Below, piece by piece: positions 897 to 41,136 of a DNA stretch of 41,136 nucleotides. Source of the stretch: Deltaproteobacteria bacterium. GTDB lineage: Bacteria; Myxococcota; SpSt-1050. Where the stretch lies: the NCBI GenBank assembly GCA_026416535.1, contig JAOAFA010000111.1:1-41136 (forward strand). Reading direction: 5' to 3'. The notes beneath the pieces were generated by a model that did not search any database, was not told where the DNA came from, and worked only from the letters and a program-made list of their open reading frames with translations. Each line of letters opens with the position of its first letter. The stretch's first letter is position 1. A program made the translations under genes and the position numbers.

Positions 897-1892
897 ATGA
901 AGGTACCTAAAAAGTTACTAAAACAGAGAGGGGACTTAATAGATACTGTAGAGCATTTTTTCAGAGAAAAGGGATTCCTGAGAGTTGAGACCCCCTCAAT
1001 ATATTTATTTGAAGAAAGCAATCCTAATATCAAAGGCATAAAGGTAATACTCGAACACAACGGTAGAACTATTAATTCTACACTCATTACCTCTCCTGAA
1101 ATATATATGAAGAGGCTTTTGGCAGAGGGATATGGAAATATATATCAAATATGTAAATTTTTTAGGAATGATGAATACGGCAAAATACATAATCCAGAGT
1201 TTTTGGGACTTGAATTTTACGAAGTGGGGAAAGACTACAATCACACGATGAATACCACGGAAGAGCTGATTAAGCATCTAGTTTTCTCTCATAATTTAAC
1301 AGTAAGAAATAAAAATAATGAGGTTATAGATTTTTCCAAACCTTTTGATAGAATTACTATAAGAGAGCTTCTAATTGATCATGGACTGAGGCTCGATTCT
1401 TTAGAAGACAGGGAAGAGTTAAAGTCAAAACTAAAAGGGAAGATTAACATAAGTGAAAATGACAGTTTTGATGATATATTTTTCAAATTCTTTTTCACTT
1501 ATATTGAACCATTTCTAGGTATTAACCGCCCTATATTTTTATATGATTACCCCCCTTCGATGTGCTCCATGGCTAAGATAACAAATAAGAAAGGTATAAG
1601 GATAGCAGAAAGGTATGAGCTCTATATAAATCAGATAGAGATATGTAATGGATTCTCAGAACTTATAGATTCGGAAGAGCAGGCAAAAAGAATGTTAAAC
1701 GATCTTAGTTCAAAAGGGATATCGATGGGTTATGATAAAGTATTTGTCGAGGCACTGAAAAAAGTCCCTGAGTGTTCTGGAAATGCAGTTGGACTTGATA
1801 GATTATTTGTTGTGCTTTTAAACTTGGAAAGCATAAAAGACATAATACTTTTTCCATTAGACGAAGAGATTGCGCTCTATGAAAAATGGTAA
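897..1892 (+). CDS. epmA: EpmA-type class II lysyl-tRNA synthetase paralog (PoxA/GenX)
   Basis: A 331-residue protein close to the usual ~325 residues of EpmA, which attaches (R)-beta-lysine to a lysine of elongation factor P. It is a stand-alone class II catalytic core without the OB-fold anticodon-binding domain of true LysRS. Motif 1 is 'FLRVETPSI', motif 2 is 'FRNDEYGKIHNPEFLGLEFYE' (about residues 91-111), and motif 3 is 'CSGNAVGLDRL' near residues 291-301. ATG 897 is preferred; a TTG three bases upstream is the only other nearby option and no good Shine-Dalgarno decides it. EF-P and EpmB are not in the window, so which lysine form is used is unknown. It follows rpmE by 18 nt, and its last 14 nt overlap the next gene. 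Confidence 0.9.
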   Translation: MKVPKKLLKQRGDLIDTVEHFFREKGFLRVETPSIYLFEESNPNIKGIKVILEHNGRTINSTLITSPEIYMKRLLAEGYGNIYQICKFFRNDEYGKIHNPEFLGLEFYEVGKDYNHTMNTTEELIKHLVFSHNLTVRNKNNEVIDFSKPFDRITIRELLIDHGLRLDSLEDREELKSKLKGKINISENDSFDDIFFKFFFTYIEPFLGINRPIFLYDYPPSMCSMAKITNKKGIRIAERYELYINQIEICNGFSELIDSEEQAKRMLNDLSSKGISMGYDKVFVEALKKVPECSGNAVGLDRLFVVLLNLESIKDIILFPLDEEIALYEKW

Positions 1893-2541
1893 GATCATAA
1901 TTTTTATAATTATTACAGCTCAACTACTTTATTCATACGAAAGAGAAAAAGCTGAAATCTCTGGAAAGCCCTTAAAATGGGAAAAGTTACCTATAAAATA
2001 CCACATAAACAAATTTTGTTATAAGCCGATTGATGCGGAAAAGTGTAAAGAGGCAATTGTAAGATCGTTTAACACATGGGAATCTCCAAAGTGTACCTCT
2101 CTTAGATTCGAAAGAAGTGAAGATACGGAAGAAGCTAAGGGTTCATTTAATTCATTGGATATCAAGGCCAATAAAAATATTATTGTGTGGTATTACAAAG
2201 ATTGGCCATACGAGCCAAATGGAGTTGCGCTCACAACCATAACATATGATGACAAGACTGGCGAAATATATGATGCAGATATAGAGTTAAATGGGGTTTA
2301 TTACAGATTTGATGTCGTAGAGACACTTCCATCAACATACACGGATATACAAAATACTATGACACACGAAATTGGACATATGATAGGACTTGACCACAAT
2401 TATGATCCACATAGCGTTATGTATCCTACTGCAAAAGCGGGGGAGATCAAGAAGAGAATTTTATCCCAGGACGATATTGAGGGTGTTTGCGATATTTATA
2501 GAGAAGAAAATGGATGTAGTTGCTCTATTCTCTCTTATTAA
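1879..2541 (+). CDS. Secreted matrixin-like (M10) zinc metalloprotease with GCSC tail
   Basis: A 220-residue exported protease. An N-terminal hydrophobic stretch (KIIIFIIITAQLLYSY, residues 4-19) looks like a signal peptide. The zinc site HEIGHMIGLDH (HExxHxxGxxH, about residues 161-171) is followed by SVMYP, the Met-turn of metzincins, so the catalytic machinery is intact. A 'KWEKLPIKYHIN' strand and 'SFNTWE' are typical of matrixin-fold N-termini. No propeptide cysteine switch was recognised. The C-terminus is NGCSCSILSY, a GCxC ending shared with the unrelated protease at 38079-39497. ATG 1879 puts the signal peptide at the extreme N-terminus; a TTG at 1870 is possible. The start lies inside epmA and the last 17 nt overlap the convergent lipoprotein gene. 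Substrate unknown. Confidence 0.85.
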   Translation: MKNGKIIIFIIITAQLLYSYEREKAEISGKPLKWEKLPIKYHINKFCYKPIDAEKCKEAIVRSFNTWESPKCTSLRFERSEDTEEAKGSFNSLDIKANKNIIVWYYKDWPYEPNGVALTTITYDDKTGEIYDADIELNGVYYRFDVVETLPSTYTDIQNTMTHEIGHMIGLDHNYDPHSVMYPTAKAGEIKKRILSQDDIEGVCDIYREENGCSCSILSY

Positions 2542-15274: not shown

Positions 15275-18200
15275 ATGAAAATAAAATGTAATAAGTGTAA
15301 CAGCGAATATAATATAGACTCATCACGAATTGGCCCATCTGGTATAAAAATTAAGTGTCCAAAATGTTTAAATTCATTCTTTGTTAAACAGGACGGGACC
15401 ATATCAAATGGGTCTTCTACTGGGCATACACCACCACCTCCTCCAAAGGAGGCTATTGAGGAGAGCAAAGCTATCAAACCACCTACTAAAGATGTCCCAT
15501 CTCCACCCAAACTAACAAGGACCGAACCAGTAAAAGCTACTGACAAACCACCAGCAACAAAAATTGAACAAAAAACCACGATATCCGTTGATAATCTTCC
15601 AGATTTACCAGATCTACCGGAATTACCAGATTTACCAGAACTTGGAACGGATACAAGCGAACTTTTGAATACTCTTGACAAAGAGATAGGAACAATAACT
15701 TCAGGGTCTATTCCACCTAAAACAGAACAACCAAAAACTCAAGACACAGGTGTTGGGGGACTCGACTTTGGCCTGGTCAACTTAGAAGAGGCCATCAAAG
15801 ATTCAATAACCATATCTACTGTCGAACAAGACAAGCCAAAGGAGTCTGTTTTAAAAATAGAAGAGAAAAAAAAAGAAGTACCTCAAACAGCTCAACATAC
15901 TCAATCGGTAGAAAAGACACCTTCTAAAAGATACAAAGTAAAGCGAAAATCCGGAAAAATATTTGGTCCCTTTGATGAAGAGACTATAGTAAGAATGCTA
16001 ATCGAGAACAAACTTTTGGGAAATGAAGAGGTATCAGAAGATGGTATTAATTGGCAATCAATATCAAAAATTCCAGAGTTTCAAAAAGCAATACAAAGTA
16101 TGCTTGAGAACATCTCGAGTTCATCCCCTTCTGTTACTAAACACATAGAAAAAACTCAACAAGAGGTACCGCCCAGTGAAGTTAAGAAAAAAATAGACGT
16201 AAGAAAGGATGGAGTAAAAGAGCCCACTAAATTAGACGAATTAAGAGATGTTATAAAGGAAAAATCAAGAGAACTCAGAGAGAGATTCTTAAATCTACCT
16301 AAAAGTATAAAGAGAGTTATAATTGCTGGAATTATTTCAATCTGCGTTCTTATTCTTGGTATTTCTGGATATAGTATATACTTGAAGTTTTTTGGTGTAA
16401 GGCTAACAAACGAAGAAAAACAATTAGTTACAAATGCTATGAGTAGTCTATATTCAGGGAACTTTGCAGAGATAAATGCGTCTCTAAACTCTCTTAAGAT
16501 CCTATACAAGAAAATTAAAGTAAAAACCCCAATTTGTGCAGTTATTACAAGAATCATATTTTATCAACGAAGTTTCTTAATGACTGATAATGAGAACGAA
16601 GAGCTCTTTGCAAAGTGTATTAAAGACATTAAGAAAGAAAAAATAGACTCTCCGGATAGCTTATTGGCGCTTGGATTATATCACGTTGTAACAAAGGATG
16701 CAGAAACTATTAAGGTCATCAACAAATCCCTTAATTCACATCCTAATTACCAAAGTTATTTAAATGCGTTTTTAAATTTGCATTCTAATAATTATACCCA
16801 GGCTGTTAATGATTTTGAAAATTATCTCAAATTCAACCCACAAGATTCTCTAATTATGGAGATCATGGGTGAGATATTCTTGGTACAGAATGACAGGGCA
16901 AATGCCCTTAAATGGTTTAAGAGAGCTGTAGAAACAAGTTCAAAAAATATTAGAGCAGCTATCGAATTAAATAACATCAACTTTTTGGAATCAGACGACC
17001 CAAAATCAAGTATAAAAGCTCTAGAAAATATTATCTCATCCTCTGCTACATCATTACATCCTCTTGAACTAGCAAGGGCAGAGTTCTTATTAGCCAAAAT
17101 GCTCTTTTCAACAAGAAAAAACGAGGAGGCAGATAAATATTTCAAGGCATCTATTTCTCATTCTCAAGAGAAGATTGAATACAGGCTAGCTTATGCAGAT
17201 TTCTTGTATAATATTGAGGAGCTTGACAGGGCATTTGATGAATTCAATTCCATAACTAAAAAGGAACCCAATAATTTAAATGCTAAAATTGGACTAATAA
17301 AAGTTATGATAAAGCAAAGAAAGATACTAAATGCTCATAAGACAATAATGGAACTCTACTCTCAGAATCCATCAAATCCTTTAGTACTGCTATTTAAGGG
17401 AAGAATTGAAGAAGAACTTGAAAAATTCGATGATGCAGAACAATCATATAATCAAATCTTATCAATTCATAAGGATTACATGGATGCTAAACTAGCTCTT
17501 GCAAATCTTTACATTAAAAAGAAAAAGATTGAGGAAGGACTTTCTATTTTAGAAGGTATAAAAAAAGAAAATCCCAAAAATACTGATGTGCTAATGATGA
17601 TAGGTGAGACTTACCTAAATCTCAAAAAGGTAGATTTGGCTATTGAAAACCTACGTAATCTTATAGAAATAGATAATTACAACACACATTCAAGATTTTT
17701 ACTTGCAAAGGCTTATATTGAAAAACAGGAGTATGAAGAAGCACTAAAACATTTAGAAGTTGTTAAAATTCAGATAAGTAAGATGCCTCAATTAAAATTT
17801 TATTTTGGCAAGGCATACTTTGGCTTAAAAAAATACCCAGAAGCCATCAGCAATCTCGAAGATGAACTAAAATCTAATAAAAATTCAGTAGATGTTATGA
17901 TCATGTTAGGTAAAGCATACAGTATGAACAATGACCATCAAAAAGCAATTGAAACCCTAAATGATGCCATTACTATTGAAAGTGGAAATGCTATTGCCTA
18001 TTTTGAGCTTGGAATGGCATATCTAAGGAAAGGGGATAAATCAAGCGCAGTAGAATCCTTCAAACAGGCTACAAACAAATCAAAGGACAATCTAGAGTTT
18101 AGGTTTATTTTTGGCAAGACTATGATCGAGAATAATATGTTTAATGAGGGTATAGAAGAACTAAAAAATGTTGTTAAGAAAGACCCAGAAAATCCAGAGT

Positions 18201-18718
18201 ATAGGTATTACCTTGCCATGGGATATTATCTCTCAAAGAACTATAAAGCAGCTATTACGGAGTTTACAAAGGTATATAGTATCGATCCATCTAATGAATC
18301 AGCCCTGTTCTATACAGCCAAAAGCCATCAGGGCAAAAAAGAATATGATAAGGCTTTAAGAGTCTTCAAAGAATGCCTTGAAAAAAATAGTGGAAACGAC
18401 AAGGCACTATTTGAAATAGCCAGAACATACGAATTTATGGAAAAATATGATCAGGCTATTGAGTATTATGAAAAAACTATCTCTAAAAATCCAACATTGT
18501 CATTGGCTTATTATAGATTAGGGTATATTTACAAAGGGAAAAATAATTATTCCAAGGCCATTAAATATTTTGAACAGTTCTTGAAGATCGCCCCAGAAGA
18601 CGAATTAGCTCAAGAGGTAAAGGATGAAATCTTTGACCTCAAAGAGGCTATGAGATTATCTGAAGAAGAAGAAAAAATGAAAAAGGATAAAGATAAAAAA
18701 GAGGATGAAGAAGAATAA
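15275..18718 (+). CDS. MJ0042 zinc-ribbon / GYF_2-like / single-TM / TPR scaffold protein
   Basis: A 1147-residue multidomain protein. Residues 1-38 form an MJ0042-type zinc ribbon (C-N-K-C and C-P-K-C pairs). A Pro/Thr-rich linker follows with a 'DLPDLPELPDLPELG' repeat. Residues ~220-280 ('GPFDEETIVRMLIENKLL', then 'EDGINWQSI') match GYF_2/DUF4339-like domains. One transmembrane helix lies at ~347-373 (VIIAGIISICVLILGISGYS). I count 17 TPR-like helices pairs after that, e.g. 'KYDQAIEYYEKTISKNPT', and the C-terminal tail is Glu/Lys-rich. The cytoplasmic ribbon and extracytoplasmic TPRs suggest a membrane scaffold; partners are unknown. ATG 15275 has GGAG 7 nt upstream and begins exactly with the zinc ribbon (MKIKCNKC). 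The stop TAA is immediately followed by the rsmI ATG. The domain set is typical of delta-proteobacteria and myxobacteria. Confidence 0.85.
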   Translation: MKIKCNKCNSEYNIDSSRIGPSGIKIKCPKCLNSFFVKQDGTISNGSSTGHTPPPPPKEAIEESKAIKPPTKDVPSPPKLTRTEPVKATDKPPATKIEQKTTISVDNLPDLPDLPELPDLPELGTDTSELLNTLDKEIGTITSGSIPPKTEQPKTQDTGVGGLDFGLVNLEEAIKDSITISTVEQDKPKESVLKIEEKKKEVPQTAQHTQSVEKTPSKRYKVKRKSGKIFGPFDEETIVRMLIENKLLGNEEVSEDGINWQSISKIPEFQKAIQSMLENISSSSPSVTKHIEKTQQEVPPSEVKKKIDVRKDGVKEPTKLDELRDVIKEKSRELRERFLNLPKSIKRVIIAGIISICVLILGISGYSIYLKFFGVRLTNEEKQLVTNAMSSLYSGNFAEINASLNSLKILYKKIKVKTPICAVITRIIFYQRSFLMTDNENEELFAKCIKDIKKEKIDSPDSLLALGLYHVVTKDAETIKVINKSLNSHPNYQSYLNAFLNLHSNNYTQAVNDFENYLKFNPQDSLIMEIMGEIFLVQNDRANALKWFKRAVETSSKNIRAAIELNNINFLESDDPKSSIKALENIISSSATSLHPLELARAEFLLAKMLFSTRKNEEADKYFKASISHSQEKIEYRLAYADFLYNIEELDRAFDEFNSITKKEPNNLNAKIGLIKVMIKQRKILNAHKTIMELYSQNPSNPLVLLFKGRIEEELEKFDDAEQSYNQILSIHKDYMDAKLALANLYIKKKKIEEGLSILEGIKKENPKNTDVLMMIGETYLNLKKVDLAIENLRNLIEIDNYNTHSRFLLAKAYIEKQEYEEALKHLEVVKIQISKMPQLKFYFGKAYFGLKKYPEAISNLEDELKSNKNSVDVMIMLGKAYSMNNDHQKAIETLNDAITIESGNAIAYFELGMAYLRKGDKSSAVESFKQATNKSKDNLEFRFIFGKTMIENNMFNEGIEELKNVVKKDPENPEYRYYLAMGYYLSKNYKAAITEFTKVYSIDPSNESALFYTAKSHQGKKEYDKALRVFKECLEKNSGNDKALFEIARTYEFMEKYDQAIEYYEKTISKNPTLSLAYYRLGYIYKGKNNYSKAIKYFEQFLKIAPEDELAQEVKDEIFDLKEAMRLSEEEEKMKKDKDKKEDEEE

Positions 18719-38078: not shown

Positions 38079-39497
38079 TTAATAAACAGTGGCGCAATTA
38101 CATCCAGATGGTTCGTCTGATAATGTATTTAGGTCGTTTTTTGTTTTTTTAGAATCTTCGTAGATGGCAATGTCATCTTTGATGTTAGTGTCTTCGATTT
38201 TTTCTTCACTTTCTATGTCAGATAGTATTTGTAGATCTTCATTTTTTATGTCATAGTTTGTATTTGGTATGTCTGTGGGTGCTATATCGCTTATTTCTTC
38301 ATCCATAGATGTATCAGTGATATCAATTGTTATGATGTCTTTCACATCGTCAGTTGTAATGTCTTGGATATATATATCTCCATTATCTACATCTCTATAT
38401 CCGGCATCATTTGTAAGAGATTGACCAGGACATTTCTCAGTGCCTGTTCCTCTTCCATCGAGAGTTGTATCAGCTGAGGCTCTACCATCTGTTGCCCATT
38501 CGTACCATGTTTCCCACCTTTTTCTATATCTGTCAACTTTATTGATTAGAGTTTGAGATGGGAATTGTCCTTTGGGGTATACTAAAATAAATGCAACCTT
38601 TCTATGGCACGGTTCGAGTTCTGGATTTCTTACACCTACGGCTGCAATAATATCATCCATTGAAAAACTTATCTTTTTGCCTTTCACAATTGTGCTTGTG
38701 CCATGAGGAAGTGGAAGTGATGCTGAACCAGTTATTAGATTTCCTGTATCTACAAGGAAGAGTTGACTTTGGTCCACCTCTGAGACCCTTCTCAATCCCA
38801 TAAGGTACTGGTCAAGATCTGAATATCCTACATTTGGATATGAGAATTCAAAAGTATCATTACCTAATTCCTTGATAAAACTCCCATACATTACAGATCT
38901 TGAATTGAAAAAGTAACTCCAATGTTGATTAAAGTCACCAGTGGTGTAGCCATCACAAGGTTCACCGCTTGAATTCCCGCTACTTTCCATCCCTCGGATC
39001 CAGCAGTGTAAGACTCCATTTTTTTTGTATGTTATAGATGCTAGGTATTGATGTCCGTATTCATGCCCCATAAGCTCTGCACCTGTGAGTGGATAGCCTG
39101 GAACTATTTGTGCCCTGTCGTCCGGATTATCTGGTAGACTCGGCAGACTACCCATTTTTACAGCCATTTTGAGCTTACCATTTGGAACACCGAATCTTGC
39201 TCGTTGATCTCTTAATAGATCTCGTCCAATACCTTTGACGTTAAGATAGACAGGCCATCCTTGTTGGATTCCTCCTCCAGTCGTACTATGAAATACAAAT
39301 ATGTCATCATAAATGTCTTTGTGAGTTTTATAAAATGCCTTTGCGGCTGCAGCAAGATAAAAGTCAGGTAATTGAGCATACTTGGTTATACTTCCATCTG
39401 TGTCCTCTATCAAAGCAATGTCTCCAATATCCTGTGCATAGACATATGTTGTTGGTAAGTTTACTATTATCACAAATATAAGCATTTTTATTTTCAT
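38079..39497 (-). CDS. Secreted HExxH metalloprotease with acidic linker and GCNC tail
   Basis: A 472-residue exported protein of no named peptidase family. A signal peptide (MLIFVIIVNLPTTYVYAQ within residues 5-22) is followed by a catalytic region with 'LMGHEYGHQYLAS' (HEYGH, ~residues 143-150) as the zinc site. The third ligand is not certain; 'EPCDGYTTGDFNQHW' and 'YSDLDQYLMGL' downstream are conserved-looking. Cysteines at 'LHCWIRG', 'EPCDGY', 'EPCHRK' and 'EKCPGQ' suggest disulfides. After residue ~365 comes a long Asp/Ile/Thr-rich acidic linker, then the end SGCNCATVY. Acidic linker plus terminal GCxC recalls MYXO-CTERM anchor signals, but no transmembrane segment or Arg cluster follows. 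GGAGG precedes ATG 39497. Confidence 0.75.
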   Translation of the reverse strand: MKIKMLIFVIIVNLPTTYVYAQDIGDIALIEDTDGSITKYAQLPDFYLAAAAKAFYKTHKDIYDDIFVFHSTTGGGIQQGWPVYLNVKGIGRDLLRDQRARFGVPNGKLKMAVKMGSLPSLPDNPDDRAQIVPGYPLTGAELMGHEYGHQYLASITYKKNGVLHCWIRGMESSGNSSGEPCDGYTTGDFNQHWSYFFNSRSVMYGSFIKELGNDTFEFSYPNVGYSDLDQYLMGLRRVSEVDQSQLFLVDTGNLITGSASLPLPHGTSTIVKGKKISFSMDDIIAAVGVRNPELEPCHRKVAFILVYPKGQFPSQTLINKVDRYRKRWETWYEWATDGRASADTTLDGRGTGTEKCPGQSLTNDAGYRDVDNGDIYIQDITTDDVKDIITIDITDTSMDEEISDIAPTDIPNTNYDIKNEDLQILSDIESEEKIEDTNIKDDIAIYEDSKKTKNDLNTLSDEPSGCNCATVY

Positions 39498-39593: not shown

Positions 39594-41105
39594 TTAGGAT
39601 GAAAATTTTTTATTAAGCTTTATACCTCTATTCTTGTCTTTCTCGTATATCAAGACCTCAAGCTCATCAAAATTAAATAAGTTTCTTTCTCCTTCTATCA
39701 AAAATATCTTGGTTTCTCTTATAATCTCCGGAACTTTGATTTTTATCTTTTCGCTTTTTATAATTCGGTCTCCTTTTTTATATCTTACTATTACATTAAA
39801 ATACAATCTAAGTGGAACTTTTATTTTGTTACTTCCGATATCTGCTTTCAAATAGAGAGAATATTTATCATTTTTTATAGAGATGTCTAAATCTTTGAAA
39901 TCGGTATAAGCAAAGTATCCTGTAAATTCGTAGTTCAGTGAATAAATTAAACCATCTCTATGATCGTAAATTTTGCTAATTGTGATATCTCCTGTGTTGT
40001 GTATTTTGTCAAATTTTTCTGCAAGTGACCTATCCGTTAGAACTATATATTTTATGCCCATAGCTGAGAGTATTCTGAGAGTGTCCATTTTTTCAGGGTT
40101 GTTTTCGATTTCTTTCATAATAGGATTCAAAAAATGAATGTATCCAGTGAAAGGCGTGTATGTAGGTTTGTTAATGATTGAGGAATATAAGATGTGCGAG
40201 TAAGCCTCCCTTAGTGGGAAAAATATTACAGCCCCTTTGGCTTTATTATTGAGAGTTTTTAATATTTCGGGTGGATTTGAGTATATTGGGTATTTAATAA
40301 TAGGGATTTTTGAATAATATTCAATTGCTACTAGTACAAATAGTATTATTGTGAGTGAGATTTTTAGGATTTTTACCTGGCGGTTTTGTATTAAAGCTAT
40401 TGTAGAACCTGTAAATATTGATACTGATATTATGGTGAATATATAAAATCTCATTGGAACTCTTGTCCCATCAAATGCAGGAAAGTATTCGTATAAGAAT
40501 CTATATAGAAATCCATAGTTGAATGTCATATCTTTAAATTTTATCACTGGATTAGGCCCGGAAATCACCAAAAATGAAAAGATTAAAATAAGTATCATTA
40601 TTAAATAATAAACACGCTTTAGGTTAACTAATAGAATTCCGAATATTGCCAGTGTTGACACTGAAATACCTAGGAAAAATGAGCCTTCATTAATGTCCAA
40701 GATTGAAAGATATTCTTTGTAGAGAAGATTGAACCTTGTAATCCCCATTAGATTTTTAAGGTCAGGAAGTGAGGCTATAGTTTTAATATCCCTTACAAGT
40801 CCGAATGAATCTCTTAATTCAAGGTATGGTAGAGTAAAAGGCATGAGGATCATAGATGACGAAATAGCTGCAATTATGAGAAATATGCAGAGCTTTATAT
40901 CTGTTATTTTTTTATTCCATATTACATAAGGTATACCTACTAGAGGAAGAATTAGTGCTAGATAAACAATGTAATACATGTTCATAAGAGACTGAAATAC
41001 AATAGTTAAGATTAGCATTGACAAATTTTTTATGTTTGTCTCATCTATTAGCTTAAAGAGAAAATATATGCAGATTGGGAATAAACCTGACCACAGAGTC
41101 TGTAT
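39594..41105 (-). CDS. Polytopic membrane protein (GT-C/YfhO-like), 5'-truncated at contig end
   Basis: About 504 residues from the contig end to the stop, with roughly nine hydrophobic helices and a C-terminal extracytoplasmic domain (~from residue 270: 'KGAVIFFPLREAYSHILYSS', 'TLRILSAMGIKYIVLTDRS'). This layout and the 'PPEILKTLNNKAKGAVIFFP' segment are typical of YfhO/GT-C membrane proteins that flip or transfer lipid-linked sugars. The N-terminus, which would hold the catalytic first loop, lies beyond the contig. The apparent start codon at 41123 (MCIRDS...) is adapter sequence; the first fully genomic codon is at 41103-41105. Function inferred only at superfamily level. Confidence 0.7.
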   Translation of the reverse strand: MQTLWSGLFPICIYFLFKLIDETNIKNLSMLILTIVFQSLMNMYYIVYLALILPLVGIPYVIWNKKITDIKLCIFLIIAAISSSMILMPFTLPYLELRDSFGLVRDIKTIASLPDLKNLMGITRFNLLYKEYLSILDINEGSFFLGISVSTLAIFGILLVNLKRVYYLIMILILIFSFLVISGPNPVIKFKDMTFNYGFLYRFLYEYFPAFDGTRVPMRFYIFTIISVSIFTGSTIALIQNRQVKILKISLTIILFVLVAIEYYSKIPIIKYPIYSNPPEILKTLNNKAKGAVIFFPLREAYSHILYSSIINKPTYTPFTGYIHFLNPIMKEIENNPEKMDTLRILSAMGIKYIVLTDRSLAEKFDKIHNTGDITISKIYDHRDGLIYSLNYEFTGYFAYTDFKDLDISIKNDKYSLYLKADIGSNKIKVPLRLYFNVIVRYKKGDRIIKSEKIKIKVPEIIRETKIFLIEGERNLFNFDELEVLIYEKDKNRGIKLNKKFSS

Positions 41106-41106
41106 A

Positions 41107-41136
41107 CTGTCTCTTATACACATCTGACGCTGCCGA
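41107..41136. other. Nextera transposase adapter contamination (not genomic)
   Basis: The last 30 bases begin with CTGTCTCTTATACACATCT, the reverse complement of the Tn5 mosaic end used in Nextera libraries, followed by GACGCTGCCGA of the adapter. In reverse it encodes MCIRDS, a known artefact N-terminus in databases. Confidence 0.97.

Follow-up and report, generated by a model that had tools for sequence, protein, structure and literature searches.

A short cysteine tail on secreted proteins of a Myxococcota genus, a probable helix-free descendant of the MYXO-CTERM signal

The window, i.e. the whole stretch of 41,136 nucleotides analysed here, contains two genes for secreted proteins that end in similar short, cysteine-containing tails (Table 1). 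One product is an M10 protease terminating in REENGCSCSILSY; the other, encoded on the opposite strand, is a protein with a HEYGH motif terminating in DEPSGCNCATVY. A sequence-only reading of the window had given these ends as NGCSCSILSY and SGCNCATVY, and had proposed that two metalloproteases share a sorting or lipid-attachment tail related to MYXO-CTERM. The ends are as it described; the acidic linker that it noted ahead of the second tail is present, and in both proteins nothing of the hydrophobic segment and Arg cluster usual for MYXO-CTERM follows the Cys motif. As to the proteins themselves, the M10 assignment is borne out by Pfam, while the HEYGH protein has no family match in Pfam or NCBIfam and a PDB sequence search returned no convincing relative; its motif makes it a probable metalloprotease. 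Its AlphaFold model is poor (pLDDT 28), as is that of the host myxosortase (pLDDT 47). The top NCBIfam match of the M10 protein is NF041905 ("myxosortase-dependent metalloprotease", MXAN_2677/2678), whose 250-bit cut-off lies above the score obtained; this match provided the first hint that relatives of the M10 protease carry MYXO-CTERM.

Table 1. Coordinates of the features in the window (plain numbers) and at other loci (L and C prefixes)
Feature	Position	Strand	Evidence
Secreted M10 (matrixin-like) protease, start codon ATG, carrying the short tail	1879..2541	+	PF00413, 64 bits; NF041905, 159 bits, under cut-off; G001 ortholog, 76% identity
Short C-terminal signal GCSCSILSY and stop; first Cys codon at 2515	2512..2541	+	Sequence; G001 ortholog end
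Putative lipoprotein, 332 aa	2525..3523	-	
Putative lipoprotein, 2287 aa	3527..10390	-	Inspection
Secreted Cys/Lys/Glu-rich protein, 126 aa	32812..33192	-	
Short C-terminal signal GCNCATVY and stop	38079..38105	-	Sequence; G001 ortholog end SGCGCTLLN and stop
Acidic, poorly conserved linker ahead of the tail, limits approximate	38109..38408	-	43% identity to G001 ortholog, last 30 columns
Secreted HEYGH protein, probable metalloprotease, carrying the short tail	38079..39497	-	HEYGH motif, signal peptide; G001 ortholog, 73% identity
Adapter-like contig end	41107..41136		
Apparent HEYGH paralog	L222:7698-9206		
Tail proteins with a lipobox-like Cys	L218:55-2679, L220:3117-4817, L225:50-2182, L239:1990-4590, L240:2475-4664		
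Myxosortase	G000:C109, ~18029-18685	-	NF040914 (Mrt_core), over cut-off

The host genome also encodes an apparent paralog of the HEYGH protein, which ends in GCSCSLID; the family is without a Pfam match, and the mature N-termini of the two proteins are alike (GEIALIEDTDG / GDIALIEDTDG). Elsewhere in the window, a 332-aa putative lipoprotein is encoded after a 2287-aa one, in which repeated Ig-like segments and Asp-rich loops are recognised by inspection, and the end of the shorter gene overlaps the last M10 codons on the opposite strand. A secreted protein of 126 aa, with CSCSKDCNC repeats and no significant family match, possibly binds metal. The contig ends in CTGTCTCTTATACACATCTGACGCTGCCGA, which we take to be a match to the Nextera transposase adapter; the ORF at 39594-41135 thus begins with an artefactual N-terminus, RQRQMCIRDS.

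The host genome (G000) is a draft of 2.96 Mb in 134 contigs, sampled in stretches of 686 kb in total; a second genome of the genus (G001) and one of the same order, from the sister family (G002), were used alongside it. All three are drafts, and coverage amounts to two genomes for the genus and one for its sister family. Among the ORFs of 100 aa or longer in the 686 kb, 666 in number, GCxC occurs 20 times, and 14 of these motifs lie near the stop, 12 at a distance of four residues and 2 at five, and none was found at any other distance up to 16 residues from it. This position has a binomial P of ~3e-27 in a sample that includes stretches picked for holding hits; in 375 kb of the host genome chosen blind to hits, four tails occur among 310 ORFs. 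The enrichment of GCxC near C-termini that the sequence-only reading had envisaged is thus overwhelming, and the tail, real on both proteases, proves to have a larger scope, being shared by over 30 proteins in each genus genome. When the whole genome was searched by pattern and the contexts of the matches were read, at least 31 distinct tail proteins were counted in the host and at least 36 in the congeneric genome, the latter being 34 recognised by the tail pattern and two further M10 proteins.

The shared pattern is [SG]-G-C-[SG]-C-x-x-[ILV]-x(1-2)-stop or, more loosely, [SG]-G-C-x-C-x-x-[ILV]-x(1-2)-stop. Counted from the end, the consensus has Ser or Gly at -10 and -9, Gly at -8, Cys at -7, Ser or Gly at -6, Cys at -5, Ser or Asn at -4, a mostly hydrophobic residue at -3, Ile, Leu or Val at -2 and most often Glu at -1. 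The third residue after the second Cys (+3) is I, L or V in 65 of 67 short tails of the genus and A in the other two, four- and five-residue forms being alike. In two variants, ACSCSIIE and DCSCNSLE, the Gly is missing but not the Cys pair, which is present in every tail collected, the collection itself having used the GCxC motif. The last residue is E, D, N, Y, F or a similar one, with Glu the commonest (26 of 63 four-residue tails); the terminal Tyr common to the two proteases is a coincidence, and was rejected as part of the signal.

Over the 40 residues ahead of the tail the median net acidic excess is 7. By a simple rule, a signal peptide is found in 24 of the 31 host ORFs and 21 of the 36 congeneric ones, many of the others being cut at a locus or contig edge; most tail ORFs with a readable N-terminus have one. 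Within the last 60 residues, the best 19-residue hydropathy has a median of 0.26 and a maximum of 1.73. A helix hidden by readthrough or frameshift was considered and rejected: an open hydrophobic stretch lies downstream of just 6 of 67 tails, several being the start of the next gene, and none of the 67 is followed by a helix-plus-Arg layout. The proteins that carry the tail include M10, M4, M36-like, M64 and papain-family peptidases, an amidase, a peptidyl-arginine-deiminase-like protein, phosphoesterases, a phosphodiester glycosidase, and proteins with kelch and InlB-type repeats; this cargo of secreted hydrolases, peptidases and repeat proteins resembles that described for MYXO-CTERM (PMC11980579). 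Five of the 45 signal-peptide-bearing tail proteins have an N-terminal lipobox-like Cys too (KGC, ASC, FSC, SAC), and double anchoring is possible for them; a full-tag homolog in the sister-family genome, L284, may also have such a Cys (MMRCGGG).

Both proteases keep the tail in their congeneric orthologs. That of the M10 protein, retrieved by its whole sequence without the tail, ends in SGCSCSTISY, and that of the HEYGH protein shows its tail after a diverged linker (Table 1). In 25 reciprocal pairs between the two genomes identity is 66% over the proteins and 41% over the final 30 columns of the linker, while codons have changed silently at 52 of 75 Gly/Cys/Cys positions, the residues being unchanged. 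Because most pairs were gathered by the GCxC pattern, the invariance of Gly and Cys is partly built in, which does not hold for the constraint at -2 and -3, for the silent changes or for the M10 pair. All three stop codons are in use among the tail genes.

A search found 29 loci for relatives of the M10 protease; with few exceptions the named genomes that contain them are Myxococcota or bear a delta-proteobacterial label. The myxobacterial relatives end in the tripartite MYXO-CTERM pattern of Cys, membrane helix and basic run, and the phylum of the host is thus very probably Myxococcota. The MYXO-CTERM model TIGR03901 has no match over its cut-off in the host or the congeneric genome, and four in that of the sister family. 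The latter mixes both forms, with five full tags and about ten short ones in 679 kb; its short tails have 5-10 residues after the second Cys (GCGCAQVGT, GCSCSSVKV, GCSCASVSP, GCSCTLVGFGVR and GCACSSVGIRERGM, each followed by the stop), thus the exact length is not critical there. The loci at which this mixture was noted are L286, L289, L290, L298, L301, L305, L312, L315 and L318. The +3 residue is V or L in five of six full tags (CASVG twice, CSAVG, CSSLG, CTTVR) and V, L, M or A in the short tails of this genome; the recognition core therefore appears shared between the two forms, with only the helix and the Arg residues dropped. The idea that the free C-terminus itself is read, which came from the fixed length in the genus, is weakened by these 5-10-residue tails with the same +3 residue. 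Homologous proteins also swap form: L284 of the sister-family genome, with the full tag GCGCASVGAGDDAGLLALLAVLGAALAALRRRR, corresponds to host L218, ending in GCSCNLLE (35% over 906 aa), and L291, with a full tag running from CECSAVG to RRRQ, corresponds to host L040, ending in GCECSLIF (46% over 455 aa).

Across 195 genomes of the phylum, the strict four-residue pattern gives 13 and 20 matches in the two members of the genus; the other genomes have 0-2, and several of these matches contain an in-frame stop. Since this pattern misses tails of 5-10 residues, 394 kb from seven other genomes were read as well, and contained no short tail and one full tag. Two genomes with raised loose-pattern counts, G003 and G050, were rejected as short-tail genomes, their matches being random-looking on inspection. 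The distribution forms a series: as far as the sampling goes, the remainder of the phylum has the full tag, the sister-family genome has both forms, as an apparent intermediate state, and the genus has the short form only. Taken as sequences, the tails are almost certainly a real, selected C-terminal signal descended from MYXO-CTERM.

A CPBP/myxosortase-like gene, which the sequence-only reading had suggested might accompany the tail, is indeed present: the host genome has a single CPBP protein over the Pfam cut-off, and with NF040914 it scores 108.9-110.7 bits against a cut-off of 100 bits. The congeneric and sister-family genomes, of the same class, also have one myxosortase each (119 and 139 bits). 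With the MrtP, MrtC and MrtX equivalog models the host enzyme scores 153, 132 and 74 bits, under the respective cut-offs of 250, 195 and 180 bits. The catalytic EE, H and H/N motifs are invariant across the three genomes, as PEExFxRG (PEEIFFRG), LGHF and H-x-x-SN (HWxSN); between the genus members identity is higher in the core (68%) than in the N-terminal half (50%), dN is 0.33 and silent sites are saturated, so that, judged from the gene pair, the enzyme is under strong purifying selection. Its neighbours, named by inspection, are ispDF, a DUF3108-like protein and a TPR protein in both genus genomes, and in neither do the immediate neighbours include a tail gene or obvious partner. No other substrate for it was seen in the genus genomes. 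All three genomes also encode a full gspD, of the type II secretion system. A dedicated extra Lgt as the Cys modifier was not seen: each genus genome has two tandem copies vs six matches in the sister-family genome, i.e. no expansion.

In the published model of MYXO-CTERM the protein is exported by Sec, a helix holds it, Cys is lipidated, myxosortase cuts and the type II system displays the product; the lipid is a prediction, the Cys-modifying enzyme is stated as unidentified, and TraA is cleaved only if its paired Cys residues are present (PMC11980579). The signal, its conservation, its MYXO-CTERM descent and the retained protease and secretion system appear established by the genomic data, and a sorting or lipid-attachment tail related to MYXO-CTERM, as first proposed, is well supported; its chemistry, lipid and cleavage, and the surface display we infer. 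The simplest reading would be the published pathway minus the helix, the Cys core being enough for the transferase. The protein would leave the cytoplasm through Sec by means of its signal peptide; in the periplasm a membrane-bound transferase would recognise CxC-x-x-[ILV] without a helix and lipidate a Cys; myxosortase, an intramembrane protease of the Rce1 family, would take off the residues after it, as in a CaaX box; finally, the type II system would take the protein, already folded, to the cell surface, to be anchored there by the lipid. Rce1 removes -aaX from the CaaX box after Cys lipidation. This membrane-free form of MYXO-CTERM is the best model and, as a whole, fairly likely; of its parts, lipid attachment at the tail Cys is quite likely, and trimming by the retained myxosortase is slightly favoured. 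Since eukaryotic farnesyltransferase accepts five-residue CaaaX ends (PMC11121372), a five-residue Cys end would not be chemically odd. Against the model, a helix-free tail must presumably still meet a membrane enzyme, myxosortase could be kept for unrecognised substrates, and a C-terminal lipid would be redundant where an N-terminal lipobox-like Cys exists.

The main rival is that the gene encodes a near-mature MYXO-CTERM end, with Cys lipidated, the last four to five residues staying in place and myxosortase kept for another job. The tail does stop about where myxosortase would cut a full tag, and short tails of 5-10 residues stand beside full ones in the sister-family genome; however, the residues after Cys are constrained and the length is nearly fixed in the genus, and the enzyme, with no other substrate seen, is under strong purifying selection, which makes this rival unlikely. 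Alternatively, the CxC pair may carry no lipid and act by thiol chemistry, for instance through a mixed disulfide or a thioester to a partner at the surface, or bind metal. The constancy of both Cys, also in the Gly-less variants, agrees with this, as does the single invariant Cys that defines MYXO-CTERM itself (PMC11980579), but the hydrophobic +3 residue, the MYXO-CTERM descent and the kept myxosortase are left unexplained, and such a role is improbable. Still less credible is a tail that serves export by the type II route rather than retention: the type II system is present and many of the hydrolases could act in the medium, but TraA without its MYXO-CTERM is still secreted by that system (PMC11980579), thus the homologous tag is one for retention. 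Chance or assembly artefact, which draft genomes and the adapter-like window end might suggest, has a negligible probability and is already refuted by the second genome of the genus, where the same signal recurs with silent codon changes, besides the binomial P and the use of all three stops.

Descriptions of the C-terminal sorting signals LPXTG, PEP-CTERM, GlyGly-CTERM and MYXO-CTERM give them three parts, among them a membrane helix by which the protein is kept in place for the sorting enzyme. The present lineage has the enzyme but not the helix, and a relative has both forms, so that the roles of Cys motif and helix are separable; with its roughly eight residues, the tail is a simple substrate on which to examine what enzyme acts on the Cys of MYXO-CTERM, and whether a lipidated Cys is what myxosortase reads, as is the case for Rce1. 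Helix-based annotation overlooks such proteins. No account of a helix-less MYXO-CTERM was found in the literature consulted, though a 2024 in-silico study of myxosortases may mention short forms.

Among known systems, the tail is closest to MYXO-CTERM (TIGR03901). In both, secreted proteins with a signal peptide carry, behind a flexible linker, a Cys motif that is often GCxC; such proteins number dozens per genome, myxosortase and the type II system are present, and homologs carry one form or the other; M. xanthus has 35 MYXO-CTERM proteins (PMC11980579). The short tail differs in having no transmembrane helix or Arg-rich end and in stopping four to five residues past the second Cys in the genus, 5-10 in the sister-family genome. 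The host protease resembles the MrtX, MrtC and MrtP myxosortases of the CPBP/Rce1 family in its core score and intact catalytic motifs, and differs from them in falling under the equivalog cut-offs and in that all candidate substrates seen are helix-free. Synerg-CTERM and CGP-CTERM are Cys-containing C-terminal signals paired with myxosortase relatives. The same holds for JDVT-CTERM (PMC11980579); all three are tripartite with a membrane helix, unlike the short tail. Nor does the latter resemble the lipobox of lipoproteins, read by Lgt and LspA, where a hydrophobic h-region and the motif L-[AS]-[GA]-C lead up to the modified Cys, since the tail Cys follows an acidic, Ser/Gly-rich linker. The eukaryotic CaaX box is likewise a short, helix-free Cys tag with an aliphatic residue at -2 (in four-residue tails) and a Rce1-family protease in the same cell, and farnesyltransferase recognises pentapeptides such as CSLMQ (PMC11121372). 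Conversely, the tail proteins are exported, their Cys is fifth rather than fourth from the end (in four-residue tails) and paired as CxC, and, given the variable length in the sister-family genome, the end itself may not be read as it is in CaaX. It is conceivable, though we lean slightly against it, that one Myxococcota order holds a bacterial CaaX-like system for exported proteins, in which a soluble, helix-free Cys tag, stripped of the MYXO-CTERM helix in every substrate of a genome, would be recognised and lipidated after export and trimmed by a Rce1-family protease.
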